Origin: Isoetes taiwanensis
Lineage: Eukaryota > Streptophyta > Lycopodiopsida > Isoetales > Isoetaceae
DNA length: 64,000 nt
Direction: 5' to 3'
NCBI GenBank assembly: GCA_021234155.1
Contig: JAJEKV010000072.1
Span: 248,001 to 312,000, forward strand
Shown: piece after piece, positions 5,357-49,164 of the stretch
Layout: the number at the start of each line of letters is the position of its first letter
Position numbering within the stretch: position 1 is the stretch's first letter
Position numbers and translations under genes: made by a program
Notes under the pieces: model-generated
Told to the model about the DNA's origin: nothing
Database searches by the model: none
Seen by the model: only the letters and a program-made list of their open reading frames with translations

Positions 5357-5906
5357 TGGCTCCCATAATCTATACGATGCTCCCATCGTATAAATACGGG
5401 AATTCCCCTCCGTGGCGACTACATCACCATGGAAGGCCCTGTCTAACTCAGACCACTTCGGCCCACCTCCTCCTCTACGAAATCCTATACAACAGAAGCG
5501 TACATACATGTTGACGGTCAAGGCCTCAAGATAACAGCAGACATAGATATAACATGGCGTTGGCTGGTATAGAACAATGGCTAGAGTAGTCCACTCCATC
5601 TGACCCTCATGTGCACACTTTGCAGATAGGCTGAAACATGCTATGCACGGTTGTAGCCTTACGGAGACGCAATCTCATGGAATCACCCTATGAGACTACT
5701 CCGGGTTACATCTCCCCAGGTCCGATGAGGCAGGAAATGGATAATCCCCCTCCAGGATCACAACGGTTCCATGGGTGTGCTAGAGGATACGTGCCACTAG
5801 GTGCACACGCGTCCGTACCCGACTTTAACCCCCCAAAATCTATGGACCGCCTCGGCGCACCCATCGAGCCCAGGAGTGTCTGTTATTTGGTGTTGAACCA
5901 CATTAT
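5357..5906 (-). repeat. 3' LTR of the old chromovirus, left part
   Basis: This part aligns with 23704 to about 24470 of the other LTR, including the shared starts (CTATACGATGCTCCCATCGT) and TGTCTGTTATTTGGTGTTGA near the break. Compared with the other LTR it lacks a block of roughly 145 bp just before the break and a shorter block near 5455. It ends in ATTAT, the target site of the nested chromovirus. Confidence 0.85.
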
Positions 5907-7480
5907 TGTGACGTTCAGCCGCGATTATACGCTCGGGGCGTACATTGTATGCGCCACGTCAGCGTACCGCCACCCCGATTGGCGTGTACGCGTAGCGGAT
6001 AACGGTAAAAAGTAGCCCTAGGGGGCAACTTGCTAGGAGTGTTCATATATTATTAATGTGCACATGTGCACATTAATGAGGGCACACCTTTCCATGTTGG
6101 CATATTTTGCCACCTAGCCACTAAAGGCAAGTGGGGCCTTTCCAATTATCCCACATGCCAAATTGGGTAATTGGAAACCCTAGCCTAAACCCCATGTCTA
6201 TTTAGGGTAGGAAAACCTAGCTTGCTAGTTTTTTCGTCCTTAGGGTTTTAGAGCTGGGTTTTGGCTGCCCCAGGGAGCCAAAAACCGCCTCCCGTGAGAC
6301 GCAAGCCGTGCGCCATCGGTTTCCACGAGATTGATCAGCTCAGCCGGGGATGGTTGAACTTCGGGTCGGGGAGGAGCCACTCAAGGATCAGGTATTTGGT
6401 CAATTTAATAGCTTAAACCGTCTTCTAGTCATAGAATCAGTAGGTTTAGACTATTAAATTGCCCATAGTAGTTATCTAGATCTTAGATCTCGGACACTAA
6501 CTAAAGAACCTAACTCTATGATTGGATCTAGTTCTTTAGTTCTTCTGTGATATATTTGGATGATGTATTTCTGTGAACTCCTTGTATTGGGAAGGGGGGT
6601 AGAGGCCCTAAAGCTTGTAGTTGATGCTCCTAGAGTAGCCTCTCTAGCACACTGTAGATTCGGCCTGTGTACAAGAGCCACACCTGGTTGTGGGTGAAGG
6701 GGCCAGACTGGCTAAGAAGGAGATTCATGTCCTGATTCTTGAACGATCCCCCTGGTGTGTAAAGCCTACCGGGGATCATTGTGACTAGGTCTGATGGCTT
6801 ACCACTGAGTGCGGGTAAGGCATGGGCTCGACACCCGTGAAGTGGTGTACACTTTCCAGTGGGTCAATCCGAATACAGGCAGTGGCCCCTCTAGTCACCT
6901 TGAGTTAGCATGTAGATCTCTGGAGGGAGTGATCCCTACCTGCCCCATCGCCAGGCGGGAGGATGAGACCGGTGAATAGCCCCTTCGGCTATGCATCCGA
7001 ATTTCTGATCCAGGTCCCGACACTTTTCAACCTACTCGCAAAGTGTGCACGGGGAGGGGCGGATGGAGGGTGGACAACCCTATGCCATGTTCTTATGCCG
7101 GCCAAATCCATTGCCATGAATTCTCGGTCCCAGAACGAACTCGGAGACCCAAGCCGCCCGGTTATCCTTTGAGTCCGAGCCTTGGGTAGAATCCCCTATG
7201 TGATGTGCTGATCTTTGTCTATGCAGAGATATGAGGAGGACCATCCGCCGAGATGGTCCTGAGGATGTTGATGTATGTGCTACCGACATGTATGTTTACG
7301 CCCGCAGCCTAGGTAGGCCCCGAGGAGGCGGGGGTAGAATGACACCTTCACTCTTCCCACTGAGACTCGTTACGGGTGCAGTGATATGTGGAGGGCCCTG
7401 TATCAGCATGGAGCTGGTGTGGGGGAAGAACTCCTGTTTGTATACGGTGAGTGCACCGTATACGAGTAGGGGACGTCACA
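5907..7480 (+). repeat. 5' LTR of the nested chromovirus
   Basis: A 1,574-bp LTR that starts TGTGACGTTC and ends GACGTCACA, so the tips form a short inverted repeat. It matches 17515-19083 over its full length. Differences between the two copies are mostly clusters of 1-4 base indels and substitutions at GC-rich spots, for example near 6290, 6705, 6985, 7310 and 7455. Confidence 0.93.
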
Positions 7481-7481
7481 G

Positions 7482-7493
7482 TGGTATCAGAGC
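7482..7493 (+). other. Primer binding site (initiator Met tRNA)
   Basis: TGGTATCAGAGC begins two bases after the 5' LTR and is complementary to the 3' end of initiator methionine tRNA. This sets the boundary of minus-strand strong-stop synthesis. Confidence 0.9.
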
Positions 7494-7682: not shown

Positions 7683-7748
7683 GGTCTCATTTCCGCTGGT
7701 GCATAAAACTAACTTTTTGTTTTGAAGCGAGGCGCAAGCTATGAGACA
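7683..7748 (+). repeat. Inverted-repeat module 1 (leader 1)
   Basis: A unit of about 66 nt bounded by TCTCA and TGAGA, with the inner string CATAAAACTAA and then TTGAAGCGAGG. Three relatives lie at 7870, 9494 and 9691. The inverted ends would allow a stem in RNA. Confidence 0.7.
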
Positions 7749-7869
7749 TCGAGCCAAGAACACCAAAACATGATGAATTTGAGATAAATAATGTGGTAAG
7801 GCTAATTCTAAGGTAGGAATTAGTTAGAATAGCATGTTTTAATTACCTAAAAACCCTAGAAATGTATGA

Positions 7870-7935
7870 GATCTCACACCGCTACCGTCGCAAAAACTAA
7901 ACATTAGTATTGGAACGAGGCTAAGGCGTGAGACC
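7870..7935 (+). repeat. Inverted-repeat module 2 (leader 1)
   Basis: Second copy of the module, bounded by ATCTCAC and GTGAGACC with GGAACGAGG before the right arm. It is the most diverged inside but keeps arm sequence and length. Confidence 0.6.
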
Positions 7936-8035
7936 AATGGGTAGAAAAAGTCTGAAATAAGTATAAGTTTTAGATAAATTGGTGCCTTAGCATGTTAAAC
8001 AGAGCAACTTGAGTTTTGACCTAAAATTCCCCAAG

Positions 8036-8147: not shown

Positions 8148-9334
8148 ATGGCCCGAACCAAACAGACCGCAAGGAAGCGTCGCCCAGGCGAAACCACCAG
8201 CGCCACTGAGGCAGAGATCATTCGGAAGATGCCGTGAGAGGCTCGCAAGAGGGGGTCGCTCGCCGGACGAAGAGCAAGACACCTCCTTCATTTGATCGAT
8301 GTCTTCAACCGCCAGTGGAGGAGGGGCGAGGCCACATCTCCAAACTCCATGGACGGCGAGACGAGGGAGGTGTATGAAGAAATAGAGCGGGGAGATCCGA
8401 CAAAGAGGAACAAGCGCTGATGAGCAAGTGACGGGTTTGGAGCCAGGTGGAGGTAGCGGTGACCTTAGAAGATTCATCAGAAGTACGAGCTGCAAGTAAG
8501 AGAAGGGAGGACAAAAAGAGGAAAAAGGAAGGAGGAGGAACAAAAGACAGCAGAAGAAAAGAAGGAAGCAAAGGGAAGTTCGTGGCTGGCATAAGGAGAA
8601 CAAAGGACCGCCCGCCAAGGAAGAGGCGAACCCCAACATTATCATCAAGGAGCTGCAACTTTGACGAACCCCCAAACCCTTAGGCGACTCTTCCGATGAA
8701 GACTTCAACCCTAACAGCTGCAGGTGGAAGCTCTTCCAAGCACCCAGCGGCCGACGAAGTACACGAGCAGCCGGCACTGAAGCAACCCCACCAAGACCAA
8801 GTGCGTAAGCCCCCGAATACCGGCATGGGATAGAAAGAAGCAACCACACCCGCCGGGAAGCCTACGCCACCAAGCGTGGTGAAGATTTATGAGAGGAAGA
8901 TGAGAGAGCACCAGGCCTACATGAAGAAATGGGAGGCCTATAACAAATATTATGAGGAAAAGCGAGGGGTTAAGTTCGCCGAGGGGGGCGACCAGCGGCG
9001 GCAAACCTAAGGCCGCCACCACCGAAGCCCAAAGGTTCCCCAAGCCGCCACCCGTGAAAAAGCGGATAGGAAGGAGGTGGAGAAGAGCGTTAAAGGGAGA
9101 TTAGACACTTCCAGCCAAGAAGCCGGTCTCCTAATCCCCGTGCCCCCTTTCGGTTGGTGCGTGAAGTTATGCGTGAGCCTATAGAAACGGACTTTAGAGT
9201 CACGAGGCAGGCGCTTGGCAATGCAAGAGGCGGCTGAGGCAAAGATAGTGCAACATTTTGAAGATTCAACACTGCACTATCCCGCCAAGCGGGTAACCTT
9301 AATGCGACAAGACATGAGTCTTGCGACCGCGTAA
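8148..9334 (+). CDS. Histone H3-like protein with expanded tail (frameshifted copy)
   Basis: The ATG at 8148 sits in a good initiation context (AAAACATGGCC). The first ten residues, MARTKQTARK, are identical to the start of histone H3, including the positions equivalent to K4 and K9. Similarity then stops and a long basic tail follows: a lysine-rich block near 8500-8640 and a probable coiled coil (IYERKMREHQAYMKKWEAY) near 8880-8945. From about 9055 the H3 fold appears. EIRHFQ at 9097-9114 corresponds to the alphaN helix, PFRLVREV near 9148-9170 to the H3 signature with one residue missing, and ETDFR to KTDLR. After a one-base frameshift come QEAAEA at 9224, FEDSTL and AKRVTLM, then a stop at 9332. 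A further shift would give an R-V-R-E end near 9357. At least three indels break this copy. Function is inferred: a retrotransposon-borne H3 variant that could enter chromatin or mimic the H3 tail. Confidence 0.85.
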
Positions 9335-9490
9335 GGGAGAATATAGAAACTTTGTTGTAAATAATTAAAAATTTTGTAATATAGAGCAATTTTGTGTACC
9401 TTGATGACATAAACTTGAGTAATTAGAGCAAATTAATAAGTTTTAGCTTTTATTTTCAGTGAAATAGGACATTTGGGAGCCGAGAGACAT
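9335..9490 (+). other. AT-rich spacer after the H3-like ORF
   Basis: An abrupt change from GC-rich coding-like sequence to AT-rich sequence with runs such as TAAATAATTAAAAATTTTG suggests a 3' untranslated or spacer segment between the H3-like ORF and the second leader. Confidence 0.45.
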
Positions 9491-9493
9491 GAT

Positions 9494-9561
9494 GTCTCAC
9501 GGCTCAGCGCCTCGTCATAAAACAAAAGTTAGGATTGAAGCGAGGTAAAGGCTGTGAGACC
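9494..9561 (+). repeat. Inverted-repeat module 3 (leader 2)
   Basis: Bounded by GTCTCACGGC and GGCTGTGAGAC, whose arms can pair over about ten bases. The loop contains CATAAAACAAAAGTTAGGAT and then TTGAAGCGAGG. It is the clearest copy. Confidence 0.75.
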
Positions 9562-9690
9562 TAATAAACTTGACCAAAACAGCTCCAAATTGACCAAATA
9601 AGGGGTGGATTACGCCTAATTTGGTGAGCCCATCACCCTTACACCATTAGTTTACCCAAATTGGACACCTTTAATCGAAATGGGACTGAT

Positions 9691-9757
9691 GTCTCCTTGG
9701 CTTCGCGCCTCGTCGCATAAAACAAAAGTTAGGATTGAAGGCGGCAAGTGTGAGACC
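9691..9757 (+). repeat. Inverted-repeat module 4 (leader 2)
   Basis: Nearly the same inner sequence as module 3 (CATAAAACAAAAGTTAGGAT), bounded by GTCTCC and GTGAGACC. Modules 3 and 4 share about 30 contiguous inner bases, so they are the most recent duplicates. Confidence 0.75.
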
Positions 9758-9944
9758 TCTTACCAATTCTTCACGGGACTTGTCAAAGTCACCTTCAACC
9801 CTCTTGCATAGCATCTTTTAGGTAACCTAGCCTTGTTCAAGCATCTCCTATAGTCCTCAAACTCCTATTTTGACCTCGGATAAGTTAGAATTACCCAATC
9901 CTAGGAAATTTCCAAGTCATCCAAAAATTAGGGTTTCCCCTTTT

Positions 9945-10068: not shown

Positions 10069-11634
10069 ATGGCAACTTCGATTTCGAGAGATGGTGCAGG
10101 CGCCCGGTAGCTCATCTTCTTGGCGAGTAGGCGTCGACCAAATCTTCAGATTTTTCGGGAAGGAGGTAGGCGTCAAGCAACCTTGCACGCGACCCCAGCT
10201 TATAGTAGAGTCTTGGCGAAGTTCCAAGCTAGGGTAGAACCCAGCGCTAGTGCAACTCCCTCCTTGTATAGGATATTTTGTTCCTAGGCGGGTCCCTGCT
10301 TGGCGGCATTAGGCGATGTCAGAACATCGCCAAATACCTCACAAACAAAGCGCGACCGCCTTTTGAGCCAATGGTCCTAGCTGTCAGCGCGGGACCAAGT
10401 ACTTCTCTTTCAACACCGCCACGGCAATCTTTCTCACCCTGCCGTCGAGAACATTGTGGGGAAACCTCTATTCCCCATGGGCGTGGATCCATTAGCCGTA
10501 GCGGCGGAGAACAACGGCTCCTCACCGCGGTATGAGCGGGGGGGCGGGGGAAGGGAAGGGAAGAAGACTCGGATGAACAGGGAACTGGGAGGAGGAGAAA
10601 CGATGTTGAGCTCGACCCGCCGAGAGGGGCGGCGACAAGCAGGCTGGGAGTGGCAAGACTCGAAAGAAGCCGCGCAGACTCACCAGTCGCCACCCCCCTC
10701 GGGTTAGGCATCACAAGCCCGGCTCCCATTATCGTCCGAAGGTGAGGAGTTTCTACCCCTGGCGACATTCAAAACCTCCGAAAGTGCGGGAAAGGGAGTG
10801 CAGGCCTGAAGAGTTGCTGCACCAACTCCGGAAGAACGGACTTGGGCGACTTCATCGTCCAGGAGAGTCGACTTTCCCCTCCAAGTAAGGGAAGCCGACA
10901 CTTACGGGAGAGTTTACCTCAGACATCCAAGCCTACAAACAACATCAGGAGATCATGGAAGCGGACAAAGGTGAGAACAAGCTACCGGCCGGAGGAAGAG
11001 TTCCTTGCTCTCGGGGAGCAGATGGGGATCCGCTATCGACCTCAAACATCCTAAGCGGCAAGCTGGGTCCAAGCGGGGAACCTCCCGGGATAGGGGGGGC
11101 GAATTCGACCTCGGGGAGGGCTTCGGCCTTGATCCAAGGACTCTGGGGGAGCTCACCACGGTGGAGGTTGATGATTTGGAAGGCGGAACCGCAGAGCTGG
11201 ATACCGAGTGGCGAGGACCCATCTCGCAACGACATTGTGGTCATTACGCTATTACACGCCATTCGATGGATGGAAGAATAGCGGTTATCCACCGCAAGTT
11301 CACCCCCAGGCGAGGAAGGAGTATCGTTGGCGATTGCACTCTCGGGATTGGCCGGCATGCACGGCTACCCCTTAACACCGAGTATGCAATCCCGGTGAAA
11401 AGAGCGGTAGCACTCGGCGTCTTCGACTTAGCCATACCTTCTGGCGGCGGGCAAGGCCATGTCGTGTGTGACGGCCTACACCTCCCACCATGAGAATAGA
11501 AGATTTAGCAAGAGCATTCTGGGGTGGATCTCCGGCCAATGTCCTTAGGAACTTGGGCCATTCGATTGGGAACAGCCCAAGTGAAAAAGTTCTTGGAGGA
11601 TAATCCATCTTACAAGGCATCCTTGGCGAAGTGA
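10069..11634 (+). CDS. Unidentified ORF-B upstream of gag (broken)
   Basis: Coding-like, GC-rich sequence starts at ATG 10069 (MATSISRDGAGA) and runs, through many frameshifts, to a stop at about 11634 after a hydrophilic end (QVKKFLEDNPSYKASLAK). The span lacks long AT-rich stretches and contains charged, Gly/Arg/Ser-rich segments near 10500-10700 and a segment EEEFLALGEQMGIRYRP near 10995-11045. I do not recognise a family. It could be an N-terminal part of Gag, an accessory protein, or two decayed genes. Its leader resembles that of the H3-like ORF, which argues for a separate transcription unit. AT-rich spacer sequence (11640-11780) separates it from gag-pol. Confidence 0.4.
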
Positions 11635-11784
11635 TTAGCGGTAGTTGCAAGTTCTTGTATTAGTGTAATATAAAATATAAATATAACATTCTCTTGCACT
11701 ATAAATGTTTTGTTGATACATTTTGTGTCCCCTCAACCATGCCAACAAACATAAATAATGCAAGAAAGCAAGGAAAACTAACCA

Positions 11785-13192
11785 TGTAGATATGAACCAC
11801 TTGTGTATGCAGCTAGAGGCCTGGCCTTGAGAGAGAGCGACAAGCTACTTCGGGAACTTCTGAGGGAACAGAGCCCGCCCGAGGCCACGCCCGGCAAGGA
11901 ACACGCTTGAAGAGTTTGGACAAATGACTCTTAAGAAGAAATATCGCTTAAATGAGGACAGACCTCTCGAGCGGATAAAGGCCTTGCTAGCCGCATGGCG
12001 AGGAGCAGGTTCGGTGGGTAGCTCTCAACTGCCGCCAAGCATCATTTCGAGGAACGGTAGAGACAGGGAAGAGGAGCAAGAGAGGAAGGTCCCCGGCTTG
12101 GACTCCTCAGGCTCAAGCTCGGTCGGACTCAGGTTCCGAGGAAGAAGAAGAGAGAACCAAGTCCGAAAGCGGCGAAAGGCGGAGGAACCACCCGGAGGGA
12201 CGACAAAGGACACAAGAACCTCGACTACCGTAAGAAAGTAGACTCTGCATTGGGAAATGTTTGGAAGGCCGGGAAGCTCGAGGCAATTCTCAAGGCAGAA
12301 CAGGTGGTCGCATGGAAGCGAGGAGGCTTGGCTTGACGAGATGAGCGAATCACGGCAATGCCTATGGTATGAAGGATAAGGATAAAGGCGGGGTGGCAAC
12401 AAATAACTCAAGGGAGCAACGCATTTGGTGGAAGGGCTATGCCAAGGCTCATGGCTTAAGCGAGGGGATGCTTGCGTGTTCAAGAAGTTTGCTAAAGCCT
12501 TCAAGCGCCATTACGTTCCAAGAGAGCACAAGTCCAGCATGATGCAGTAGTTCTACAGGTTGCAGCAAGGCAACAAGTCAATCTTAAATACAATGGAGGA
12601 ATTTATGAGGCTAAGGTTTTGTATGTGCCAAAGTTAGGTGAGAAGCATGCGTGGAAAGCTACATTGAAGGTCCGAATGAGGGAGATCCGCGTAAGCTTGT
12701 AAGGGCAATAAACCCTAGAAGCGGTATCGGGAAGGCGGAGTCCAAGGCAATAAGCTTGCAAGGGACAGGACCTCGGGGAATGAAGGGCGAGGCAACAGAT
12801 ATTACCAAGATAAAGGCAAAGGCAAAGCGGCGTTTTAGCAGGAGAACGGCCGGCCCGGGACCAGCTAGAGCCCCATATAGTGGCAATCAAGGGAAACAGC
12901 GGGGAAGAAGCGAGGTGTCCTTCAAAGACAAGCGGGAAGGGTCAAACTACTCCAAAGCGGTCGCGATCCTTTCGCAGGAGCCATGCCCAAGAAAAAAGAG
13001 AGCGAGTGCATAGAAAGCGGCTTTGCTTCAGGTGTTTCCAGCCGAGGCCATAGGGCGGCAAACTGCCCATATGTCATGAGTGCAATAGCGCGCGAGTTGG
13101 GAGATTGGGACACTAGGACCCGACGCGGCGGCGGCGGCGAGGAGGCCCGCGACTACATTCAGGGGGTGAGTGTCATATCTTTGCCGCAATAG
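11785..13192 (+). CDS. gag: Gag region with capsid-like block and zinc knuckle (frameshifted)
   Basis: Gag forms the virus-like particle in the cytoplasm and binds the element RNA. The retrotransposon gag block is visible near 12420-12640: W-W-K-G, FKKFAKAFKRHYVPREHKSS, then FYRLQQGNKSI and EEFMRL, matching the family pattern W..F...F...Y.P followed by F..L.QG. A CCHC zinc knuckle (CFRCFQ...GHRAANCP) lies near 13023-13066, across a one-base shift. Upstream, 11924-12241 gives a charged Arg/Glu-rich segment. Several stops and indels interrupt the frame. The true start is uncertain. Confidence 0.7.
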
Positions 13193-13879: not shown

Positions 13880-14560
13880 GCGAGGAGTTGCCGGACTAAA
13901 AAGCGATTCGGGGAGCTGCTTTCGACCTAGGTTTCATTAGACCTAGTGTCTCGCCGTTTGGGCGCCCATTCTTTTTGTCAAGAAGAAGGATGGATCTTTG
14001 AGAATGTGCATAGACTATAGGCGGTTGAATAAGCACACCATTAAGAACAAGTATCGCTTCCAAGATCGAGGCGACTTGATGGATCAGCTTCAAGGAGCAA
14101 AAGATCTTCTCAAAATCGACTTAAGGTCGGGGTTATCATCGAGATACGGATAAAGGAGGAGGATATCCACAAGACCGCCGGGGGCCGTGGTATGGGCATT
14201 ATGAGTTCCACGGTGATGCCTTTCGGCTTATCAAATGCCCCATAGCGTTCATGAGGCTCATGAGCGATATCTTGAGGAGTTCCCGGACACCTTTGTGATT
14301 GTTTTCTTTGATGACATTTTGGTGTATAGCAGATCCTTGAAGAGCACGTGCAACACTTGAGAAGGGTGCTAGAAGTTGAGGAGGCACGGTTATGCGCCAA
14401 GTTGCCGAAGTGCCACCGCCTTGAGAGAAGGTGGAATACCTTGGTCATGTGATCTCGGAGGAAGGCATCTCGGCGGACCCGCCAAGATTGAAGCGGTGAT
14501 TCGGTGGGGCGGGCGCCGAAGAATGTGCGCGAGGTCAAGTTTTCTCGGTCTAGGGTACTA
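13880..14560 (+). CDS. pol: Reverse transcriptase region of Pol (frameshifted)
   Basis: The RT core is seen in pieces: [11 protein letters not shown] near 13997-14030, a K-I-D-L-R-S-G block near 14113-14133, M-P-F-G-L-S-N-A-P near 14215-14240 and the catalytic F-F-D-D-I-L-V-Y motif with the FFDD codons at 14304-14315. Connection sequence resembling [10 protein letters not shown] follows near 14545. It copies element RNA into DNA inside the particle. Frames switch several times, so this copy cannot make the enzyme. Confidence 0.8.
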
Positions 14561-14699: not shown

Positions 14700-15100
14700 A
14701 CAGCCCGATCTCTTAACCCTAGGACCCGGAGAAAGATAAGCTTGTAGCAAGCGGATGCGAGTAAGATAGCTACAGTGCGGTGCTTATGCAAGAAGCGTGT
14801 GGTAGCGTATGATTCGGGGGAAGATGAGCGGCGCCCGGGGCGCTACCCAACGCGCCGCGATCGAGGGAATTGCTTGCGGTTGTCGGGCGTTAAGAATATG
14901 GAGGCACTACCTCTTGGGAAGGAAGTTCCAATTGGATACCGACCATCGAGCCTCAATATGTATTCACATAACCACACCTCAATCTGAGGCGTGGAGATGG
15001 ATGGAGTTCCTCGAGGAATACGACTTTGATATAGTCTACAAGCCGGGGAAACTCAATGTGGTAGCAGATCGCGCTTTCAAGGCATCCCCCGACAACTAGA
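14700..15100 (+). CDS. pol: RNase H region of Pol
   Basis: The C-terminal half of the Gypsy RNase H is in a single frame (14809-15099): F-Q-L-D-T-D-H-R-A, then W-R-W-M-E-F-L-E-E-Y-D-F-D-I-V-Y and K-P-G-K-L-N-V-V-A-D, the standard end of this domain. The first catalytic aspartate region lies near 14750 in another frame. RNase H removes the RNA template during reverse transcription. Confidence 0.75.
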
Positions 15101-15289: not shown

Positions 15290-16265
15290 GTGCGTGCAGA
15301 ATCATCAGGTGTAAGGAAGTTGATCCTCCATGACGCACAACAGCCCAATAGCTGGCCATGCGGGATTCATGAAAACATATTTCAAAGCGCTTGGCGGCTA
15401 TTATTGGCCAGAATGAAGAAGCAAATAGCTCGCTACATCAAGGAATGTCAGCTATGCCGCCAGACGAAGGCCGAGCAGCTTCGAATTCGGGGGCATTAGA
15501 GCCATTAGCGGTGCCAAATGCTAAGTGGGAGGTAATCAGCATGGATTTCATCACGGGACTCCCAAGAACGGCCGAGAGGCAAGGATGCCTTGATGGTAGT
15601 GGTCGACAAGTTGTCAAAGATGGCACATTTTGTGCCTTGCGGGACCACCAGTCTGGCTATGGATACTGACAAAGCTCTTCACCAAAGAGATCTTAGGGCT
15701 TCATGGCATGCCAAGGAGATTATCTCAAAGCGAGGAGATCCGAAGTTCATGAGTGCCTTTTGGCAAGACCTCTTTGCGACAATTCAGACCAAGCTATCCA
15801 TGAGCACGGCGTATCATCCTCGGGCCGGATGGCGGACGGAGCGGACCAACAGGATCTTAGAAGACATGCTCTGAAACTATGTGCGGAATAAGCAAAGTAT
15901 GTGGGAAGAATTTATTCACTTGGTGGAGTTTGCATACAATAGCACCAAGCGGGGAATCGTCCCAAATGTCGCCATTTATGATCAATTATGGCTATCGGTG
16001 CCTAACTCCGGACACTTGGCACAACCCGTGTCAAAAGTAGAAGTTTCGCAGCCGGATGTTGGCCGATATGCGGCGGCTTCGTGGAAGAGGTTGAGGGTAT
16101 CCGCTAGCAGCAAGAAGTCGACAAAAGAGCATCACGATAAGCATCGAGCAGTAAGAGAGTTCAAAGTTGGAGATGATGTATGGCTCAAGATAAAAGGTGA
16201 AGCGGTGGCTTCGGGATTGGCAATTGCAAGAAGCTTGCTCCAAGGTGGGCTGGACCCTTCGGAAT
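15290..16265 (+). CDS. pol: Integrase region of Pol (frameshifted)
   Basis: The HHCC zinc domain is at 15318-15470 (H-D-A...H-E-N...C-Q-L-C). The DDE core follows: M-D-F-I-T-G-L-P with its aspartate codon at 15544, V-V-V-D-K-L-S-K-M-A-H-F near 15598-15630, G-D-P-K-F-M-S near 15735 for the second aspartate, and T-E-R-T-N-R-I-L-E-D near 15838 for the glutamate. A GPY-like region (KVGDDVWLKIKGEA) is read near 16165-16205. Integrase inserts the cDNA into the host genome. Confidence 0.82.
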
Positions 16266-16431
16266 AATCAAGAGAGTAGGTAATCAATCCTACAAGTTAG
16301 AATTGCCAAACACACCTAAAGATTCATAAGGTCTTCCACGTGAGTTTGTTGAAGAAGCATACTCCAAATCAGACGAAGTTTTGGACACTCCAACGTTGTT
16401 GGAAATGACGGAGGAGCAGCTGGAAATAGTT

Positions 16432-16634
16432 CCAGAAATGATTCTTGATAGAGCTTTTAAGAAGACAAGGAGGTCCGAATTCCTCATTTATTTGGTCAAG
16501 TGGAAACACTTACCGATGGAAGACGCCACGTGGGTACTTAAGAAGGATTTGGTAAAAGCGGTACCCACGGTTTATGGAGCAATGGGGCCGGCAAGGTCAT
16601 CTCGAAGAAATCGCTCGGGCATGTCGACGGCGTA
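16432..16634 (+). CDS. Integrase C-terminal chromodomain
   Basis: The segment P-E-M-I-L-D-R-A-F followed by E-F-L-I-Y-L-V-K-W-K-H-L-P and E-D-A-T-W-V (16432-16560) is a clear chromodomain: beta strands with Y, W and W at aromatic-cage-like positions. In chromoviruses this module is fused to integrase and directs insertion to chromatin carrying methylated histone H3. The frame is open from 16381 to the stop at 16633-16635. The same element encodes an H3-like tail, the usual ligand class of chromodomains. Confidence 0.85.
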
Positions 16635-17501: not shown

Positions 17502-17514
17502 AAGGTGGGGAGAA
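17502..17514 (+). other. Polypurine tract
   Basis: AAGGTGGGGAGAA directly abuts the 3' LTR and would prime plus-strand DNA synthesis. The same 13-mer, on the opposite strand, occurs at 19751-19763 in the older element. Confidence 0.88.
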
Positions 17515-19083
17515 TGTGGCGTTCCGGCCGATATCGCTCCGGGGCGTACATTTATCTTGCCCGCCACGCGTACCGCCACCCCGATTGGCGGTATGCGCCA
17601 GCGGATAGCCAGGTAAGTAGCCCTAGGGGGCAACTTGCTAGGAGTGTTCATATATTATTAATGTGCACATGTGCACATTAATGAGAACACACCTTTCCAT
17701 GTTGGCATATTTTGCCACCCTAGCCACTAAAAAGGCAAGTGGGGCCTTTCCAATTATCCCACATGCCAAATTGGGTGGTGGAAACCCTAGCCTAAACCCC
17801 ATGTCTATTTAGGGTAGGAAAACCCTAGCTTGCTAGTTTTTTCGTCCTTAGGGTTTTAGAGCTCAGTTTTGGCTGCCCCGGGCCAAAACCGCCTCGAGCA
17901 GCGCCCAAGCGAATTCGCCATCGGTTTCCCTGAATTCGATCAGCTCGGCGGGATGGTTGAACTTCGGTCGGGGAGGGAGCCACTCAAGGATCAGGTATTT
18001 GGTCAATTTAATAGCTTAAACCGTCTTCTAGTCATAGAATCGTGTAGGTTTAGACTATTAAATTGCCCATAGTAGTTATCTAGATCTTAGATCTGGGACA
18101 CTAACTAAAGAACCTAACTCTATGATTGGATCTAGTTCTTTAGTTCTTACGTGATATATTTGGATGATGTATTTACGTGAACTCCTTGTATTGGGAAGGG
18201 GGTAGAGGCCCTAAAGCTTGTAGTTGATGCTCCTAGAGTAGCCTCTCTAGCACACTTTGTAGGTCGGCTGTGTACAAGAGCCACACCCGGTTGTGGGTGT
18301 GAGGGGCGGACCGGCTAAGAAGGAGATTCATGTCACGATTCTTGAGCAGTCCCCTGGTGTGTAAAGCCTACAGGGGATCATTGTGACTAGGTGCGATGGC
18401 TTACCACCGAGTGCGGGTAAGGCATGGGCTCGACACCCGTGAAGTGGTGTACACTTTCCGGTGGGTTGGTCCGAATCACGAGGCGGTGGCCCTCTAGTCA
18501 CCTTGAGTTAGCATGTAGATCTCTGGAGGAGTGATCCCTACCGCCCCATCTGAGGCGGGAGGATGAGACCTGGGAATAGCCCCTCGGCTATGCATCCGTG
18601 GGAACTCTGATCGAGTCCCGACACTTTTCAACCTACTGCAGCAAAGTGTGCAGGAGGGGCGGATGGAGTGGACAACCCTATGCCATGTTCTTATGCCGCC
18701 CAAATCCATTGCCATGAATTCTGTCCAAGAACGAACTCACGGAGACCCAAGCCGTCGGGTCATCCTTTGAGTCCGAGCCTTGGGTAGAATCCCCTATGTG
18801 ATGTGCTGATCTTTGTCTATGCAGAGATATGAGGAGGACCATCCGCCGAGATGGTCACGCGGGATGTTGATGTATGTGCTCTTGACATGTATGTTTACGC
18901 TTCCGCAGCTAGGTAGGCCCTGAGGGAGACGGGGTAGAATGACACCTTCACTCTTCCCACTGAGACTCGTTACGGGTGCAGTGATATGTGGAGGGCCTTG
19001 TATCAGCATGGAGCTGGTGTGGGGGAAGAACTCCTGTTTGTATACGGTGAGTGCATCGTGATATCAAAGTAGGGGACGTCACA
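17515..19083 (+). repeat. 3' LTR of the nested chromovirus
   Basis: A 1,569-bp LTR starting TGTGGCG and ending GACGTCACA, matching 5907-7480. It is followed by ATTAT, the right copy of the target duplication. Confidence 0.93.
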
Positions 19084-19088
19084 ATTAT

Positions 19089-19748
19089 GGCATCCACAGC
19101 CCGGTGCTCTTGTGCACAGGCTTACATCTAATGGGATTTGAGGGGTTCTAAGTAGAAGCATATCTAATCCTAGATGGCCTTTAGGTCTCTATCCCCTTTT
19201 ACCCATACAACACAGGAGGAACAGAAAGAGAGCATTCATATCCGATGCATCCATCATAATCTCATCTACAACATAAAATAGAGAGACTAATCATCCGTCT
19301 AACAAGCAAGGATTAGTTCCTAACTAGAATCTCAAGCTAATGAAGCCTATTAATTGGTATCTGAGCTAGATCTTCCATCTCTCAGGTTCTTCATGCCATG
19401 CTGGTTGAATAAGATCCTCCTCCTTCTCCAACCTCCCCAAATCGAATTGGGGCAAATTGGGGGTGGAAGCCCCAATTTGGGTGTCCCAAGTTAGCAACTC
19501 TCCCTTGTCCAATCGATTTGGGCCAAGTGTCAATGCTAAATTACTTATTAAGTAATTTAGTATTTTAGCCCTTTTAATACTAGGTTAAGCCCTAAATTTG
19601 AATTAGGGTTTAGGGTTAGGTTTCCACCTTAATAATTAATGATTGACATAGCTAACCTTAGCTTATGAATAATTAATGCACCATTAATTATTCATGGTGA
19701 CATGTCATGTATTTATACCCAAAAGGTATATAAATACGTGGAACATCA
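19089..19748 (-). repeat. 3' LTR of the old chromovirus, right part
   Basis: It continues the LTR broken at 5906 and matches 24470-25141, starting GGCATCCACAGCCCG and ending GGAACATCA. A palindrome CTAAATTACTTATTAAGTAA (continuing to 19560) sits at 19536; the other LTR has an expanded version. Confidence 0.88.
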
Positions 19749-20480: not shown

Positions 20481-20735
20481 CTATATGCCCATCCCCATTC
20501 CTAGGCTTGCATGATGCCTGCCGGATCTAACATTCTTCGAGATATCGGCTGGTGGCTGTGGCGCACCCCGTTTCTTTGAAGCCAGTGGTGAAGATGCCGT
20601 TGTTGGCGCATGCCTGACGTTGCCATAGGACGTAGTCCCATCAAAATCCCTCTCGAGGACTGATGTTGTATGCTCCTTTGGTAAGTGGGTCCACTTAACC
20701 AAGTAGGACAGATGATGAGTATTGCTTGTACGCAT
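20481..20735 (-). pseudogene. Chromodomain remnant of the old chromovirus
   Basis: Residues 9-30 of this minus-strand frame read L-S-Y-L-V-K-W-T-H-L-P-K-E-H followed by S-V-L-E-R-D-F, a decayed counterpart of the chromodomain at 16432-16560. It sits at the expected 3' end of pol relative to the minus-strand polypurine tract. The stretch after it is a basic, Ser/Pro-rich tail. No integrase core is readable upstream, so most of pol has been deleted or has decayed. Confidence 0.6.
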
Positions 20736-23688
20736 GATGGAGAAGAGCGTGTGGAACTAGTTCCACTTGCTTGTCCGTCATATCTAAGAGCATTTAGAAT
20801 CTATATAGTATCTTAGAATCAAATGTATACTTCTCCAAAAGGCTTACGTGAAGGATGTTATGGGCCTTCAGAGACCTGAATCCTCCACAGAAGTTTGCAT
20901 GTCGATGAACACGTGTTGGGGTCAACTATAACCATTAGACATCAAATACCTGACGGTTTGTGGAAGTCTCACTGTTACATTCGTGGTGATGAGTTCCGCA
21001 GTGGTTGGAACTCTTTTGGAATCCATGACTACTCCCTTCTTTATTTCATTATATCACATTATATCTAATTTAGAAATCATTCTTTATTCACAGACTCATT
21101 CTAATCATATTAACTTCTTTTTTATAGGTCGATTATACTCTCCCTTCACTTTACAATTTCTTTTATTACAGTCTGCCCTAATTTAATTTTGTATCAAATT
21201 TTTTTCTTATTTTGTTGCAGTTTTAACAACTCATATATTGCTATCCTCTCTTTTATATGTCCATCACATTTATACTTATCCTTTAATACACTTATATATA
21301 TTGCATTATATCTCACGTTTTTACATATATATTTTAACATTAATTACGCACACACGTTCTTCATCATTTATTATTCATAACCTTTTTATAATTATAATTC
21401 AAGTCTCGTTACTCCTTCAATAGTTTGTATAACACATACATAATTATATTTTCCATTCTTTTATATTTAACACTGCATTCACTCTACACTTTATTATATC
21501 AAGATTTATTTTCCACCATATTTTGAAATACTTTTCTTCTTTTGGCTATCTCCCATCTTTCCACACTCACGCTGTCTACCTTAACCATACTTTACATCCA
21601 CACGTATACACATATTAATCCATTAGTTATATCCATACATTTGTCATACATGCGGACATTCTTATATTTACATCGCACAGATACATCTCACAGAGACATT
21701 CTATGGGGTACCGTTAAGTTGACGCCACCTAGGTCGTTGTCCACCTGTGCTATGGCCATACGATCTTCCTATGTTATGAATAGGGTGTCCATGGCGGAAG
21801 CATCGAAAGCATGCCTGGTCCTTCTTGAGCCTCTTATATAAGTTTGTTATCCCATTGAATCACTAAATGTTAAGCGACCCAGAAAGGTGTGCTTACTAAT
21901 AATGCTTAAATATCCAGCTTATGAAAGGGATATCACTTTAGAAGTGTAGGTTTCGACAATGGTGGCCAAGATATAGAATGTTTATGCTATAAGCTAGAGG
22001 ATGAATGGCGTATAACGACACAGATCCATAAACTACAGATTATAAAATTACGCATGCATTGCGTTTCGTAAGGAGGTTGACGTTCCTGAGGCGTGCATCA
22101 ATGCAAAGTGTCTTCTGTAGGTGCAAAGGGCACCGAATAGAAGACTAGACAATAGTGGGAACCGTAGTAATATACCCACACGACAAGTGTGATACAAGGG
22201 GAGGTTGAAAGTTGTTGTAAACAACATTTCAAATACAGGGAAGTTGAATGGACACTTTGAGTAGCCCAAAGTGTGGAATATGGACAAGGTAGGTGCCCAA
22301 TGAACGTCTCACCAAGGAGAATGTGCTCCGGACTTAGTACTCTGTGTGTATCTCGAGGAGTAGCTCCGCGTTGGTATATGCGTACTAGGACCATTTAATG
22401 GTATAACAACAAAAGGAAAGGGTGTGTAAGAGAACTTTTAGTTCACAGTCCGTATGAATACGAAAATAATGAAGATAAGAGTTCTTATAGTAGACTTTAA
22501 ACATGTCCATTAGGAACTTAGGGTGGCATCTCTCACTTTGGAATTTGTGACTACAGCTTGAGGATCAAGTCGAACTAGGGTTAGAGAGTCTAAAAAGTGT
22601 GGTGCCAAAACCACAACATGTATATGGTACAAGATAAATAAGTCGAGAAAATATGTTTGCGACAACAAGAAGTTGAATTTTCGGTGGATAATATCATCCA
22701 CTATATTGTTATACAGGAGTGGATTATAACACATGTTATATATCACATAATAACAAGGTAGTAATCGTGGATGTTGGAAGGATTTAGTAGTATCAAATAC
22801 TACATTAGTGAGGATGTCAAGGATGTCGACTATGACATTCAGATGTATGTTATATTGGAAGATAGTAGAATATTCATACAAGTCAAGTGAGTCTGATTAC
22901 TAGACATAAGTCTTACTATAAAAAACAGAGATACTGTTGGTTAAGTAGAACAAGAGACTATTGTATTCATTAAAAGGAAGTTTACTATGTTGGTAAAGGG
23001 TTTGGCTTGATGGTGGGAGGTCAACGGTTCAAGTGTCTATAATATAACTTTGTTAAAGAGTTGTTGTGCAAAGAAAAAAGAATACTAGATGTGTATAACA
23101 TATATGAAATATATTACATTTAAGGAAGCTTGGCGTGGTGGTAATTGCCTAAGGTTGGAGTTGGAAGGTTGTGAGTTCAAATTTCGGTTGAGGGGACAAA
23201 AGAAAAGATATTTATATGGTGAAAATATAATGGAATTTTTAAATGACAGAAATTTTTATATGCGAAAAAAATATTGGGGCGTGATGGGGAATTTTGGAGC
23301 TTCTTTTTGAATTCTAAGACGCTGTTTTGCCGATCACACCCCTTTTGCTCCTGAGCCCGTTTGTTTTTGTTTTGGCGCATCCCACCCATGCTCCTTGGTC
23401 CATTGGATTGTCCCGGACGCGTTGGTGCAAGAATCGCCTCCATCCGAGTTACCTAGAAAAAAGTTATAGCCCGTGGAATCAAGAGACCTCGTTCTCCCAA
23501 CTTAGCATAACTCTATTCTAATAACTCACACGTTAATCCCTAGCTAGCTTATTTCTCCCATAACTAGGCCAACACTCATGCTACCTTGGAAGTTGAAGTA
23601 GTTTATCTTAGATTAAAGTCCCCTACTAACTATTGATCTAACGAGTTAGAATATGGCCAGTGCTATGATTTGGTCCACCAAAATCATG
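20736..23688 (-). other. Decayed internal region of the old chromovirus
   Basis: About 3 kb with no readable Gag or Pol motif on either strand. Part (21050-21540) is strongly T/C/A-biased with near absence of G on the plus strand, and several minus-strand stretches resemble chance frames only. It may be a deletion derivative or contain unidentified insertions. Confidence 0.45.
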
Positions 23689-23703: not shown

Positions 23704-25141
23704 TGATGCTCCCAGAATCTATACGATGCTCCCATCGTACAAATATGGGGAATTCCCCTCCCGTGACGACTACATCACCATGGAAAGGCCCTTCGTCTAA
23801 CTCAGACCACTTGCGATGAACAAGTGCCCGGGTGAGGAACACGGAGGTGTCATTCGGCCCAAGTCCGCTATGGGAATCCTATACAGCGGAAGCGTACATA
23901 CATGTTAGCACCTAGCAATCATACATAAAATAATATACCATCACGAAGGGTGGTCCATCCATCATCATCATATACATGGCAATACAAAGTACACCGGCTA
24001 GAGTAGTCCACTCCATCGCCCCTCCCCGTGCACACACTTTGAGATAAAACATGCTATGGCGCGGTTGTAGCCTTCCGGAGATGCAACCTCATGGAATTAC
24101 CCTATGAGGCTACTTCGGGTTACATCTCCCCGGTCCAATGAGGCAAGAAGGGGATAATCCCCCTCCAGGATCACAATGGTTCCATGGGTGCGCTAGAGGA
24201 TACGTGCCACTAGGCGCACACGCATCCGTACCCGACTTTAACCCCCTAGAATCCATGGACCTCTTTGGCGCACCCATCGAGCCCAGGACATCCATATAGG
24301 CACATTTCCATGCGGCCCAGGAGGTGTCAGACCTATACCTGGCCCCAACGCGAGGACCGACTATAAGCCTAGCACACTGTAGGAGCCCCAGTAGCCACGC
24401 TCAGCAAGGCTCCGCCCCCACTTCACCAATTGTGTCTGTTATTTGGTGTTGAACTACATCGTGGCATCCACAGCCCGATGGGCTCTTATGCACAGGCCGC
24501 ATCTAATGGGATTTAAGGGGTTCTAGCTAGGAGCATATCTAATCCTAGATGGCCTTTAGGTCTCTACCCCCTTTTACCCATACAACACAGGAGGGACAGA
24601 AAGAGAGCATTCATATGTGATACATCCATCATAATCTCAGCTAGACATAAAATAAAGAGAATAATCATCCATCTAACAAGCAAGGGTTAGTTCCTAACTA
24701 GAATCTCAAGCTAACGAAGCCTACTAACCGGTATCTGAGCTAGATCTCCCATCTCTCAGGTTCTCCATGCCCTGCTGCTTGAATAAGCTCCTCCTCTTCT
24801 CCAACTGCCCCCAAATCGAATTGGGGCAAATTGGCCCTAATTTGGATGTCCCAAGTTAGTAACTCTCCCATGCCCAATCGATTTGGGCCAAGTGTCAATG
24901 CTAAATTACTTATTACTAAGTAATAAGTTATTACTTATTACTTAGTAATTTAGTATTTTAGCCTTTTTAATATTAGGTTAAGCCCTAAATTCAAATTAGA
25001 GTTTAGGGTTAGGTTTCCACCTTAATAATTAATGATTGACATAGCTAACCTTAGCTTATGAATAATTAATGCACCATTAATTATTCATAGTGACGTGTCA
25101 TATATTTATACCCAAAAGGCATATAAATATATGGAACGTCA
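23704..25141 (-). repeat. 5' LTR of the old chromovirus
   Basis: A 1,438-bp LTR, TGATGCTCCC to GGAACGTCA on the plus strand. It is the complete reference for the split copy. It contains nested palindromes at 24901-24953 (CTAAATTACT...AGTAATTTAG outside, CTAAGTAATAAG...CTTATTACTTAG inside). Confidence 0.88.
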
Positions 25142-29302: not shown

Positions 29303-31520
29303 TCAACAGACAATTTGATCAAAGCAGCGGCTGCCTACTTCCCTATTATCATGTGTTCTACAAGCAGAAAGCAAACTTGTCCAACCTGTAATATTAGTTT
29401 GTACAGAGGACTGAAGTAAAGCTTCAGCCTCCCAAAGAAAACCTGCACGACTCAGCAAGTCCACAATACAATTCAAATGAGAATTAACTGGCATAATACC
29501 ATAACAATTTGTCATTAAATTAAAGAACCAGCGACCTTCATCTACCAGGCCTGCTCGGCTGCATGAAATGAGGATGCTAGCAAATGAGGCCTCATCTGGA
29601 TTTAGACCCTCCCTTTCCATTTTTTCAAAATATTGTAGACATGAAGGGCCATCCCCATGCTGGGCAAATCCAGCAACCATTGTATTCCATGATACCATGT
29701 TCCGACTCGACATTTTGTCGAAAACTTTGTAAGCTTCCTCCAGGCAACCACATTTGGCATACATATCAAGAAGAATGTTTCCCCACAATAGTATCTAACT
29801 GTGCTCTGCACTTTGTGATTTGTTAGGCGGAATTAATCTGCCTTGCTCAGTTGCACCCATCACAGCGCATGCTTTGAGGACACTTAAATATGTGGCTTCA
29901 CTTGGCTTGATGCTTTCTTGCATTTTATCAAAACAATGCAAAGCAAGCATCCCTTCTCCATGCTGGGAATATCCTGCAATAATGGCATTCCATGAGGAAA
30001 CATTTGGCATTATACCTTCTTGCTGCATTAAAACAAGATATTTCTCAGCCACTGGACCTTGCCCATTGTGACTGTATCCTGCAATTATGGCATTCCAGGT
30101 GATTATATTTCGATACTGCGTACACTGAAAGATGGTGTATGCGTCATCTGAACTTCCACATTTTGCATACATATCTACCAATGCACTCCCCATAACAACA
30201 TCCAGTTGGATCATAGATTTCATGATCTGCGCATGAACAAGCTTTTCCTTTCTCCTTTAATCCAACAACTGAGCATGCTTTCATGATGTTTACAAATGTT
30301 ATATTGTTTGGCATTATTTCAGCCTCTTGCATAGTTTCAAAGCATTCTAGAGCTAGATGAGCTGTGTCACCATGCTGAGAATATCCTCCAATTAGTGCGT
30401 TCCATGATTCTATGTTTGCTTTTATGCCTTCATGTTGCATTTTCTCAAAGCATGTTTTGGCCTGAAGGGTACCTTCATTCAAGGAATATGCTGTGATCAT
30501 TGCATTGAAAGATATAACATCTCTATCAAACAACCTAGTAAAGACTATGCATGCTTCATTCAAATACCCACAAGTGGCATACATATGGATCAATGTACTT
30601 CCAATAGAGACATCCAAATGATGTCTGCTTTTTATAACAGCCCGTGAACGATCCTGCCCACCTCAACTGCTCTCATATTGGCACATGCTTTTAAAATGCT
30701 ATAAAATGTCACTTTATCTGGATCTATGCCTTCCTGTTGCATCCGATCGAAACATTGTAACGCTAATTGATCATCCCCATGCTCAACATATCCACTCAAA
30801 ACTGCATTCCAGGATACCACATTTGGCTTTAAGCCTTCCGTTTGCATTTGTTCAAAATATTTTTAGTGCCAAATGGCTATTTCCACACAAGGCATATCCG
30901 AAATAATTGCATTCCAAATTACCACATTTTGAATAGTCAATCTGTCAAAAACTTGGCATGCATCTCCTAAGGCTTCGCACATAGCATACATATGGACGAG
31001 GGTGCTTCCCATCACATCATCCAATTGGAGTTTGTTAACAATGCCCTCAGCGTGTATAATCCTTCCATGAAACAGCAATTTTTCATCATGCAAGACTTGA
31101 GGACAGCAACGTATGTATATGCATCAGTTCTTATTTCCAATATGTGCATTCTGTGGTACAAGTCAAGAGCTGTACAACATTGCCCCAGCTTAGCATTTGT
31201 TAAAATGATTGCAGCCCATGTGTATGAAGTTGGTTTCTCTATTGCATCAAATGCCCAATTAGCTTCATATAAACTCTTATGGCAAGAAAAAATCCGTATG
31301 AGATGATCGCCTAGAACAGAAATTCTATCCAACCTGTGAAGAATAAGAGACCGAGTCTTCTACCGCATTCTAAAGATTTCCGCTTCTCAGCTTCCGTAGA
31401 AGGGAGTATGCGCTGTTTCTTGTCATAACAATTCCTTGCTGTTGCATAATCTCTGCGGCTTCTAATGCATCATCCAAGAATCCCATCTCACAAAGTTTGT
31501 TAAACTCCTCAAAGAAACCT
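29303..31520 (-). pseudogene. PLS-class pentatricopeptide repeat (PPR) pseudogene
   Basis: PPR proteins bind organelle RNA through 31-36 residue helical repeats. At least fifteen repeats can be followed on the minus strand, with hallmark strings such as GSTLIHMYATCG, VDMYAKCGSSDDA, ITWNAIIAGYSHNGQG and WNTMVAGFAQHGDG, and the leader FNKLCEMGFLDDALEA near 31500. The 3' end reads into an E1-type motif (W-T-S-L-L-S-A-C-R-T-H) and stops at 29303, without E2 or DYW domain. The coding path moves between all three minus frames (segments 31012-31332, 30863-31093, 30632-30847, 30144-30617, 29795-30223, 29303-29788), with in-frame stops near 29795 and 31345. At least five breaks make it a pseudogene, unless the assembly is faulty here. 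The neighbouring TDP2 exons are intact. Confidence 0.85.
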
Positions 31521-46705: not shown

Positions 46706-46902
46706 GTCAGGTTAGGCGGAGAAGGCGGGAGGCGCTCTCCATGTAAGGTTACGTTTCTTGCAGATCAACTGCCTGTCACTTCTCGAATCCATCCCATCCC
46801 CCCAGATCAGTCCAGCCTCGAACCTCTCAAAGGTCACATCCCTAATTCGTCTGTCTCTCTTCCCCAAAAGACTGCACCTGCAGTCCCCCATAAATCTGTC
46901 CC

Positions 46903-49127
46903 ATGGCCGTACCAAAGGTATCCTTCACCCCAAAGGTTTTCCCGAATGCAACAAGAGCGCTCATCCCTGATCCAAAGGACTTCATACAATTCGGGAGTCT
47001 AGATATGGCGGCATTCACCGCATGGATGCTTCAGAATCAAGGAATTCCAGAATGGGATAACATTACTCGTGAAGAAGAGCCGGAACTGCCGAGACCTGCT
47101 GCACCTATCTTCACGAACCCGGAGTGGATGAACATTCTCCGACAGCAGAAGTTTATTCATGCTCCAGACGAAGATTTCACCAAAGGTATTAAGCTGGATT
47201 TTCAATCCACCCGAAACAAACTTCATCTTCTACATAAAAATGCAGTTATTGGTTGGACGGAAAAGGAAGGATTCAACCTAAACGAAATAGCCAAACAAAT
47301 ATACTCCCTAAATAAGAATATGCAGATTGCATCTATATATTGGTTGCAATTTCCTTTCTTCATGGTTGAGTTGACATCCCAGGAAGCTGCTCTTGATCTG
47401 CTGAAGAAAAACCGAATCATACACAAAGGATATCAAATCAAGTTCCAGAAATGGGAATATCATTTTGATCCTACCTTCCCCAAGTCCCTCCCGGTCACAG
47501 TCTTCATGCAACCCCACGGTCTCAACCCCATCTACTGGAACAAGGACTGCTTCAAAGCAATCTTCAATACCATTGGCCATTTCATCTCTGCAACTTTCCG
47601 ACCAGACAGACCACCATTGTTTACGTCCAAATTGATTTGCTCAAACCCATTCCCCGAGAAGTGACCTATGTTGATCTGTTTGGAACTAACCGGGTGCTGC
47701 AGCTGAATTGGAGTGGCCTCCCACCGGACTGTGGCATCTGTGGGAAAATGTTCCATGGAGGTGGCAGGTGCATCCCGAGGAGTAACAGTGGAGATTCAGA
47801 GGATACACAAAGGAACGGAAAGTATCAACCTGACAGAAGAGTGCGACAGGCACAAGAAAACGGACATAACTGTGACTATGGCCCCCAAAAGGATAAAATG
47901 GCCATGGATTCTGACAAACCAGGGAGACACACGGAGCATAAAGAAAACTATAGAAAATTACAGAGGAAAAGACAAGATAGGGAACGTATCAGGCAAGCTA
48001 ATTGGGACCTCTCGCAAAGGATACTGTAGGCTTTTGAAGAGAAGAAGGAGGGGAAAAAATCAGCACAGCGGACCTTCAACACATACAGCAAGGGAGTTTC
48101 ATTTGCGGAAAAGGACCAGTTTGCTAAATTCAACAAAGATAGCCCACCAAACAGGATATATATTGAGAGAACCCGAGAGTTAGAGACACTGGTAACAGAG
48201 TTACACCCAAGAGGAAACACAACAGAAGGGTCTCACACTAACATGAACCCGAATCAGGAAGGACCTCAGACCCAAGATTTAAGCACTGCTAGTGAAAAGG
48301 ACAGGACAGAGGCTGAAACAACTCAAACAGAAGATGTATTCAATTGGGAAGACTATGATACAGGCAATAGGTACAGTCTGCTTAATACACAGGAAGCCCA
48401 AGAAGACTCAGAGATACTGAATACTTCTGATACGCCACAGGGAAGGACACTAACCTCCCCGAATAAACACAGGAAAGGAAGTGAACTCAAGGAAGATCTG
48501 GGAAGAAAATCACAGTCTGAGTCAGGACACTCTTTGGAAATTGTATCTCGGTCTGAAGCCACTAATTCCATTGCACCATGTCAAACCAGCTCCCCAAACA
48601 ACTCCCCAAACACCTCACCCCATAGCCAAATACCCTCCACACAGCAGAATCAAGAGCATGCTGAGGATAATGTCTCATTTTTACAGGCTTTCATTCATTG
48701 TAAAGATGATGGTAGGTATGCTGCTTGTGTTGAACGTTTTGTTGCAGAGGCTTTGGAGGAATATTTAGGAGAGCAAAATCAAGGAGCCTCAATGGATGAT
48801 AAAGATGCTTCTGTCCAGGTAAGTATCCAATCCCTCAAGGATTTGAATATTACAGACCCTGGATCCTGTGTTTCCAAAGATAGAAGAGTGAGTTGCACAC
48901 CAATACTCTCTAAATTCTGGGCCACAGTAGAAGATGAGATAGGAATGACAGAAAATGAGGACCTAGACAGCATACCTAAGGATTTGGACAAGCTTAGTGA
49001 CTATCTATGTGGAAACATGACAGACTTTACCCCCAATAGAAAATCTAGGAAGCAGAGAAAGATCTATCAAAAAGATCCCAATTACAATGGGCCTGCTTCC
49101 AATACAAGGAGGACCAAATCCTGTTAA
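46903..49127 (+). pseudogene. LINE ORF1, DUF4283-like with zinc knuckle
   Basis: The first 250 codons resemble the plant LINE/retroelement DUF4283 nucleic-acid-binding domain (W-L-Q-F-P-F-F and the Y-W-N-K-D-C-F end). After a one-base frameshift near 47610-47630 the frame continues with V-D-L-F-G, L-P-P-D-C-G-I-C-G-K-M-F-H and G-G-G-R-C, a C-x2-C-x4-H-x4-C knuckle at about 47729-47770. One in-frame stop is at 48027-48029. The rest (to TAA at 49127) is a hydrophilic Ser/Thr/Glu-rich tail. ORF1 proteins coat the LINE RNA. Two lesions only, about 740 codons in all. Confidence 0.8.
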
Positions 49128-49164
49128 AAGGTCTGCCCAATAGCTGCTTGCCCATTCACTCAAA

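Follow-up and report, generated by a model that had tools for sequence, protein, structure and literature searches.

Histones encoded by DNA viruses are already known, and the bracovirus H4 (CvBV-H4 or CpBV-H4) joins host nucleosomes and acts through its added tail (PMC9145170). In plants, retrotransposons are silenced via H3 marks, namely H3K9me2 along with DNA methylation (PMC9033089). Additional ORFs with an epigenetic flavour have been described as well; orchid Ty3/gypsy elements carry an AlkB demethylase ORF and resemble the elements reported here in that the extra ORF acts on an epigenetic-type mark, yet that ORF is an RNA demethylase and no histone (PMC12786077). Among the matches listed for the open-access literature, no title or abstract opening reports a histone encoded by a retroelement. 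Likewise, "histone" appears nowhere in the main text of a review that covers the additional ORFs of plant LTR elements (PMC7264820), nor in that of the genome papers of Isoetes taiwanensis (PMC8566536) and I. sinensis (PMC10541799), and the main text of the viral histone review does not contain the word "retrotransposon" (PMC9145170).

Plant Ty3/gypsy chromoviruses are characterised by TG...CA LTRs, a primer binding site of the initiator-tRNA type, gag, reverse transcriptase (RT), RNase H and integrase, a C-terminal chromodomain, a polypurine tract and a 5-bp target duplication. The Isoetes elements share this organisation and depart from it by adding, between the 5' LTR and gag, an H3-like gene and usually one more ORF. 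Here, I report that a group of chromoviruses carries in this place a selected accessory gene of the H3 superfamily with a long N-terminal extension, a reading to which I assign a probability of about 95%.

The window, i.e. the whole 64-kb stretch of I. taiwanensis DNA that was analysed, contains an H3-like gene that sits in a complete Ty3/gypsy chromovirus (Table 1). The LTRs, the primer binding site, the polypurine tract, the ATTAT duplication, the gag-to-integrase order and a PF00385 chromodomain are all present, in agreement with the first-pass annotation, which had called the element a chromovirus from its letters alone; the domains follow one another as gag, RT, RNase H, integrase and chromodomain, in fragments, several of which score under the Pfam cut-offs.

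Table 1. The H3-bearing chromovirus of the window and its features (window positions).
Feature	Position	Strand	Evidence or remark
Target-site duplication, left copy ATTAT	5902-5906	+	identical five bases recur at 19084-19088
5' LTR, TGTGACG...GTCACA	5907-7480	+	90.8% identity to 17515-19083
Primer binding site TGGTATCAGAGC	7482-7493	+	motif read in window sequence
H3-like gene, broken in the window copy	8148-9334	+	MARTKQTARK start, tail of about 290 codons, terminal histone fold
Histone fold, frame changing	9094-9331	+	PF00125 pieces
Putative second accessory ORF, between H3 gene and gag	10069-11660	+	limits set by eye; open piece 10975-11493
gag fragment	12476-12616	+	PF03732, E 1.4e-4, under Pfam cut-off
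Reverse transcriptase fragment	13977-14132	+	PF00078, E 8e-4, under Pfam cut-off; pol similar to L015
RNase H fragment	14881-15021	+	PF17917, E 5.5e-6
Integrase zinc-binding fragments, two frames	15330-15472	+	PF17921, under Pfam cut-off
Integrase C-terminal SH3-like domain	16219-16320	+	PF24626, E 1.6e-8
Chromodomain	16429-16560	+	PF00385, E 2.8e-6
Polypurine tract, adjoining the 3' LTR	17502-17514	+	read in window sequence
3' LTR	17515-19083	+	LTR comparison
Target-site duplication, right copy ATTAT	19084-19088	+	read in window sequence

The primer binding site, which I take to be of the initiator-tRNA type, recurs as the exact motif TGGTATCAGAGC in 13 of 20 loci of a second set of elements (type 1, see below) and in 6 of the 19 sampled copies of the window subfamily (type 2). 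The motif TATAAATAG, found at 8037 and at 9946, lies upstream of both the H3 gene and the putative second ORF and marks candidate internal promoters. The open piece of this second ORF has no Pfam match, and the ORF gives no tblastn match to the ORF2 of type 1. Four hairpin-like stretches are also seen, two before the H3 gene (7685-7765 and 7865-7940) and two before the putative second ORF (9485-9565 and 9685-9768), the latter two having 25 identical bases in common; none of the four has a match in the 20 type 1 loci.

The H3 element is itself nested in a repeat (5359-5875 and 19088-19748), of which a second copy lies at 23708-25141. Most type 1 loci have an LTR region similar to the reverse strand of one part of the repeat (5512-5842), and at 20640-20871 the minus strand contains a pol/chromodomain remnant; the repeat looks like an older, truncated minus-strand chromovirus. 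Elsewhere in the window are remnants of a PPR repeat gene in several frames (29303-30662, minus strand; Pfam PPR E 5e-25 for 29303-29794, the rest by eye), a LINE-like element (46894-55403, plus strand) with DUF4283 at 46894-47664 and a reverse transcriptase at 52022-52972, and a PIF1-like helicase (57581-58645, minus strand, E 1.3e-41), possibly part of a Helitron.

The first-pass annotation had described the gene as an ORF between the 5' LTR and gag, starting with ten residues identical to H3 and ending in the landmarks of the H3 fold. Its place between the LTR end at 7480 and the gag match at 12476 stands, but the frame is not open, the three frames of 8148-9334 containing 22, 14 and 8 stops, with 22 in the first, which is that of the start. 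MARTKQTARK is indeed encoded at 8148, and the fold landmarks are found in order at 9094-9331, along which the fold switches between several frames. The PF00125 scan that had been proposed returns two frame pieces that are consecutive on the profile, namely 9094-9234 (profile 40-80, E 0.0012, 19.6 bits, less than the cut-off of 26.4 bits) and 9185-9331 (profile 81-118, E 8.1e-6, 26.5 bits). In an X-joined reading, the last 113 residues of the gene match PDB H3 chains (best E 1.4e-11).

The genome searched comprises 1,658,258,908 bases in 1110 contigs. Forty of the 1290 candidates of a DNA search with the whole window gene were scored, the window copy included, and all 40 matches begin at base 1 of the 1187 and extend to base 1175 or further, which excludes a chance resemblance; identity to the window gene is 82-89% in the remaining 39 copies (100% for the window itself). 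Sixteen of these 39 were fetched, and one of them (L030) is fully open, with 403 codons from MARTKQTARK to the stop, the other 15 being broken at least partly and one of these (L035) being open in frame without a start. The histone domain of L030 scores 99.5 bits (PF00125, E 2.1e-28), its residues 279-402 align to residues 12-134 of PDB H3 chains, and both of its LTRs could be read, with ends as in the window and a target duplication TTGTT.

A 301-base piece, 600-900 bases upstream, was compared in 19 of the 39 copies, and in all 19 it aligns with the window element across its LTR end and leader, at 84-96% identity; the H3 gene is therefore a fixed part of the element in the copies found. With 39 more near-full-length copies, this upstream context and selection on the protein (see below), the proposal that the element captured an H3 gene is supported, and the gene is not a private host H3 pseudogene lodged in a single copy, which had been named as one way for the proposal to fail. 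The other way, full-length copies lacking the ORF, is answered in part: all copies found have it, but they were collected through the ORF itself.

As to the broken frame of the window copy, the I. taiwanensis assembly (1658.30 Mb, 204 scaffolds and 909 contigs) was built from nanopore reads and polished with racon and pilon (PMC8566536). The 5' and 3' LTRs of the window differ at 160 columns falling into 56 clusters, where independent changes would give about 114, and 41 of the 56 clusters lie near CpG, where 500 random placements put 19 on average and never more than 29. Such bursty differences fit base-calling error at methylated sites of a nanopore assembly. Assembly noise is likely behind the broken frame, and genuine decay may account for some of the damage, for the comparison of the window ORF with L030 shows no CpG bias (32 of 72 near CpG, 27.8 at random).

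A second set of H3-bearing chromoviruses in the same genome, type 1, strengthens the case for capture. The Pfam Histone search of the genome yielded 8705 first-look candidates, the best 150 of which were scored. Fifteen of these match the profile from position 2, and the eight of them that were read are canonical H3; 36 of the best 150 lie in open frames of at least 400 codons and 22 in frames of at least 450, and 20 of these 22 loci form the type 1 sample. All 20 encode one protein type, in which 319-367 residues precede an H3 fold that is terminal or nearly so, and N-terminal similarity divides them into families A (n=12), B (n=7) and C (n=1). An LTR end and leader are found upstream in 18 of 20 loci, a match to ORF2 (about 460-500 codons where open) in 19, and gag-pol downstream in 18. 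Three type 1 ORFs were scanned, and their histone domains score 141-149 bits (E 2.6e-41 to 1.2e-43; cut-off 26.4).

The element of one type 1 locus, L015, encodes a capsid, protease, RT, RNase H, integrase and a chromodomain (PF00385, E 6.3e-8); its Gag has a capsid match of its own together with weak zinc-knuckle matches under the cut-off, and its H3 gene lies directly 5' of gag, without an ORF2 match. The L015 chromodomain matches CHD1 and HP1 chains, the alignments viewed being those to CHD1 only, and, going by HP1 positions, presumably keeps one of the three aromatic residues of the canonical (Group I) cage. LTR ends could be read in another type 1 locus, L019, with a target duplication GTGGC; among the five copies printed, target duplications are clear in the window, L030 and L019, and the outer ends of L015 and L021 are not clear. 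A TATA-like site occurs 75-129 bases past the H3 stop in 9 of 12 members of family A, in none of 7 of family B and in the single member of family C not at all. A scan of IMG/VR with the type 1 N-terminal domain gave seven pattern matches, none of which was confirmed.

The two types differ in how far the fold has moved from that of the host. Across the 91 fold positions compared, identity to host H3 is 86-89% for three type 1 representatives and 57% for type 2, represented by L030, which is 57-58% identical to plant CENH3. The same three type 1 proteins match host H3 at positions 49, 63, 69, 72, 83, 110, 113, 116, 118, 123, 126 and 129, with K/R swaps at 42 and 64; in one type 1 copy out of 20 (L016) position 63 is C, and type 2 deviates from H3 with E at 42, R at 45 and P at 63. 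I take the positions listed to be DNA-contact or dimer-interface sites of H3. Type 1 lacks the H3 tail with K4, K9 and K27, and type 2 retains only residues 1-9, with ARTKQTARK kept exactly, so that K4 and K9 could still be marked in type 2. Type 2 has a long tail of high charge; among the first 300 residues of L030, 66 are K/R and 61 are D/E. In the sole family C protein, L018, the linker contains ARKS, an H3 motif, possibly by chance.

Both types are under purifying selection, with dN/dS of about 0.02-0.2. For the window subfamily, the dN/dS test suggested at the outset gives pooled values of 0.03-0.14, that is 0.14 for the fold and 0.03 for the mid tail (six copies each), 0.13 for the outer tail (four) and 0.09 for the N-terminus (two), from open stretches only and with some of the nonsynonymous differences falling at frame-damaged ends. 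In family A, ratios of means are 0.03 for the fold, 0.09 for the N-domain and 0.18 for the linker (66, 43 and 57 usable pairs of 66, the others being saturated or near zero), and in family B (21 pairs) they are 0.02, 0.13 and 0.13, respectively; because copies were picked by histone score and a long open frame, the type 1 fold values are biased low, the N-domain being less affected.

A tree built from 37 fold sequences unites type 1 as a single group within canonical H3 (support 89/96, not starred) and places type 2, with its long branch, next to plant CENH3 (62/44); this tree lacks the host's own CENH3, and a position of type 2 within canonical H3 is not rejected (p 0.434). Profile comparison finds no similarity between the N-terminal parts of the two types (hhalign probability 0.1%). 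Two separate H3 acquisitions are likelier than one, which is a preference and not a result of the tree, since a common clade of types 1 and 2 is not rejected either (p 0.371).

Between type 1 families, compared with one copy each, the N-terminal part is 31-32% identical and the fold part 83-89%, and the pol proteins of four type 1 copies are 87-93% identical. L015 carries an H3 gene of family A, yet its pol is nearer to that of L021, of family B (dS 0.34), than to those of L019 (0.92) and L026 (0.81), both of family A, and between the H3 genes of L015 and L021 synonymous changes are saturated. Judging from this one clear case, recombination therefore seems to transfer the 5' accessory region from one element lineage to another.

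Relatives were also sought in the protein database. With the broken window reading as query, 1330 of 4156 candidates matched, and most of the best 120 show repeated H3 copies when scanned for two H3 motifs; nine of these 120, read fully, are tandem or fused H3 genes. With only the window tail as query, none of 2018 candidates matched at E up to 10. A fold-only query matched 6766 of 7027 candidates, 12 of which were read, and its best 120 are headed by duplicated H3s, below which come plant CENH3s annotated as such and many proteins without a name. Near-canonical type 1 proteins may rank below the best 120, and the protein-database result does not show absence from other species.

What the protein does can be approached from these features. 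I lean, at slightly under even odds, to an accessory H3 that would pair with host H4 via its fold, enter nucleosomes and let the chromatin of the element resist or redirect silencing. The protein would be translated from the ORF that comes first in the element RNA, enter the nucleus and be built into nucleosomes, either on the element's own new DNA or at sites of host H3 turnover. The normal tail would there be replaced, in type 1 by a region of 320-370 residues and in type 2 by a tail keeping residues 1-9 only, and such nucleosomes, with the normal H3 tail largely or wholly missing, would be unable to take the usual silencing marks. The presence of the gene family-wide, the high-scoring histone domains of L030 and the three type 1 ORFs scanned, purifying selection, the interface positions kept in type 1, the missing type 1 tail and the precedent of bracovirus H4 count for this model; the departures of type 2 at 42, 45 and 63, the C at 63 of L016, the ARTKQTARK of type 2 and the ARKS of L018 count against it. 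Tail loss alone does not demonstrate escape from silencing. On a broader and doubtful view, H3 would twice have been made into a self-supplied, mark-refusing nucleosome component that gives the element an epigenetic state of its own, with a fold as essential as the polymerase and an H3 module (with ORF2 in elements that have it) swapped between lineages.

A passenger without function, i.e. an H3 pseudogene carried along, or a mis-assembly, is scarcely credible: the window copy is full of stops and frame changes and 15 of 16 fetched copies are partly broken, yet the many separate insertion sites of the copies, the open frames, the low dN/dS of both types and the target-site duplications strongly contradict it. 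An unlikely but more serious alternative is a protein of the particle or integration complex that compacts the element cDNA or tethers the complex to host chromatin, acting before integration. It would suit a gene that belongs to the element and is located before gag, as well as the charged tail of type 2; nucleic-acid binding, however, may already be covered by the L015 Gag, with its capsid and weak zinc-knuckle matches, and the H3 interface positions kept exceed the needs of DNA binding. The protein might also act as a decoy, absorbing H3 chaperones, H4 or H3-tail enzymes and so cutting host H3 supply or silencing without entering nucleosomes, and the exact H3 residues 1-9 on the diverged fold of type 2 would agree with this; type 1, however, lacks the H3 tail and has its fold as the most constrained part, and I regard the decoy as decidedly unlikely. 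That type 2 is a CENH3-like histone, which brings the element to centromeric chromatin or imitates it, is more improbable again. Type 2 shares EIRHFQ, LIP..PF, T85, E87 (with P0162 and P0175) and VTLM (in three of four plant CENH3s) with the centromeric variants and groups weakly with them in the tree (62/44), whereas its identity to CENH3 (57-58%) equals that to host H3 (57%), its loop 1 is of H3 length without the CENH3 insertion, and its placement inside canonical H3 is not rejected (p 0.434).

To sum up, the H3-carrying families suggest a genomic parasite that supplies its own piece of the chromatin that packages and silences it. An element-encoded H3 with a replaced tail would be a direct attack by a parasite on the substrate of silencing, and at the same time a natural experiment on the function of the H3 tail; it makes testable the idea that mobile elements carry their own epigenetic state. 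CENH3/CENP-A is alike in its divergent tails, and several residues are common to type 2 and plant CENH3; unlike the Isoetes proteins, it is encoded by a host gene, type 1 is canonical-H3-like, and type 2 is without the extra residue that all four aligned plant CENH3s have in loop 1. The nucleosome model proposed here would, by analogy, resemble bracovirus H4 acting via its extended tail in host nucleosomes. As described, that protein is likewise a core histone encoded by a mobile element, with a fold about 87% identical to insect H4 and an added N-terminal tail (PMC9145170); it differs in being an H4, in having 38 added residues against roughly 300 or more in the Isoetes proteins, and in belonging to a DNA-packaging insect system and not to a retroelement.
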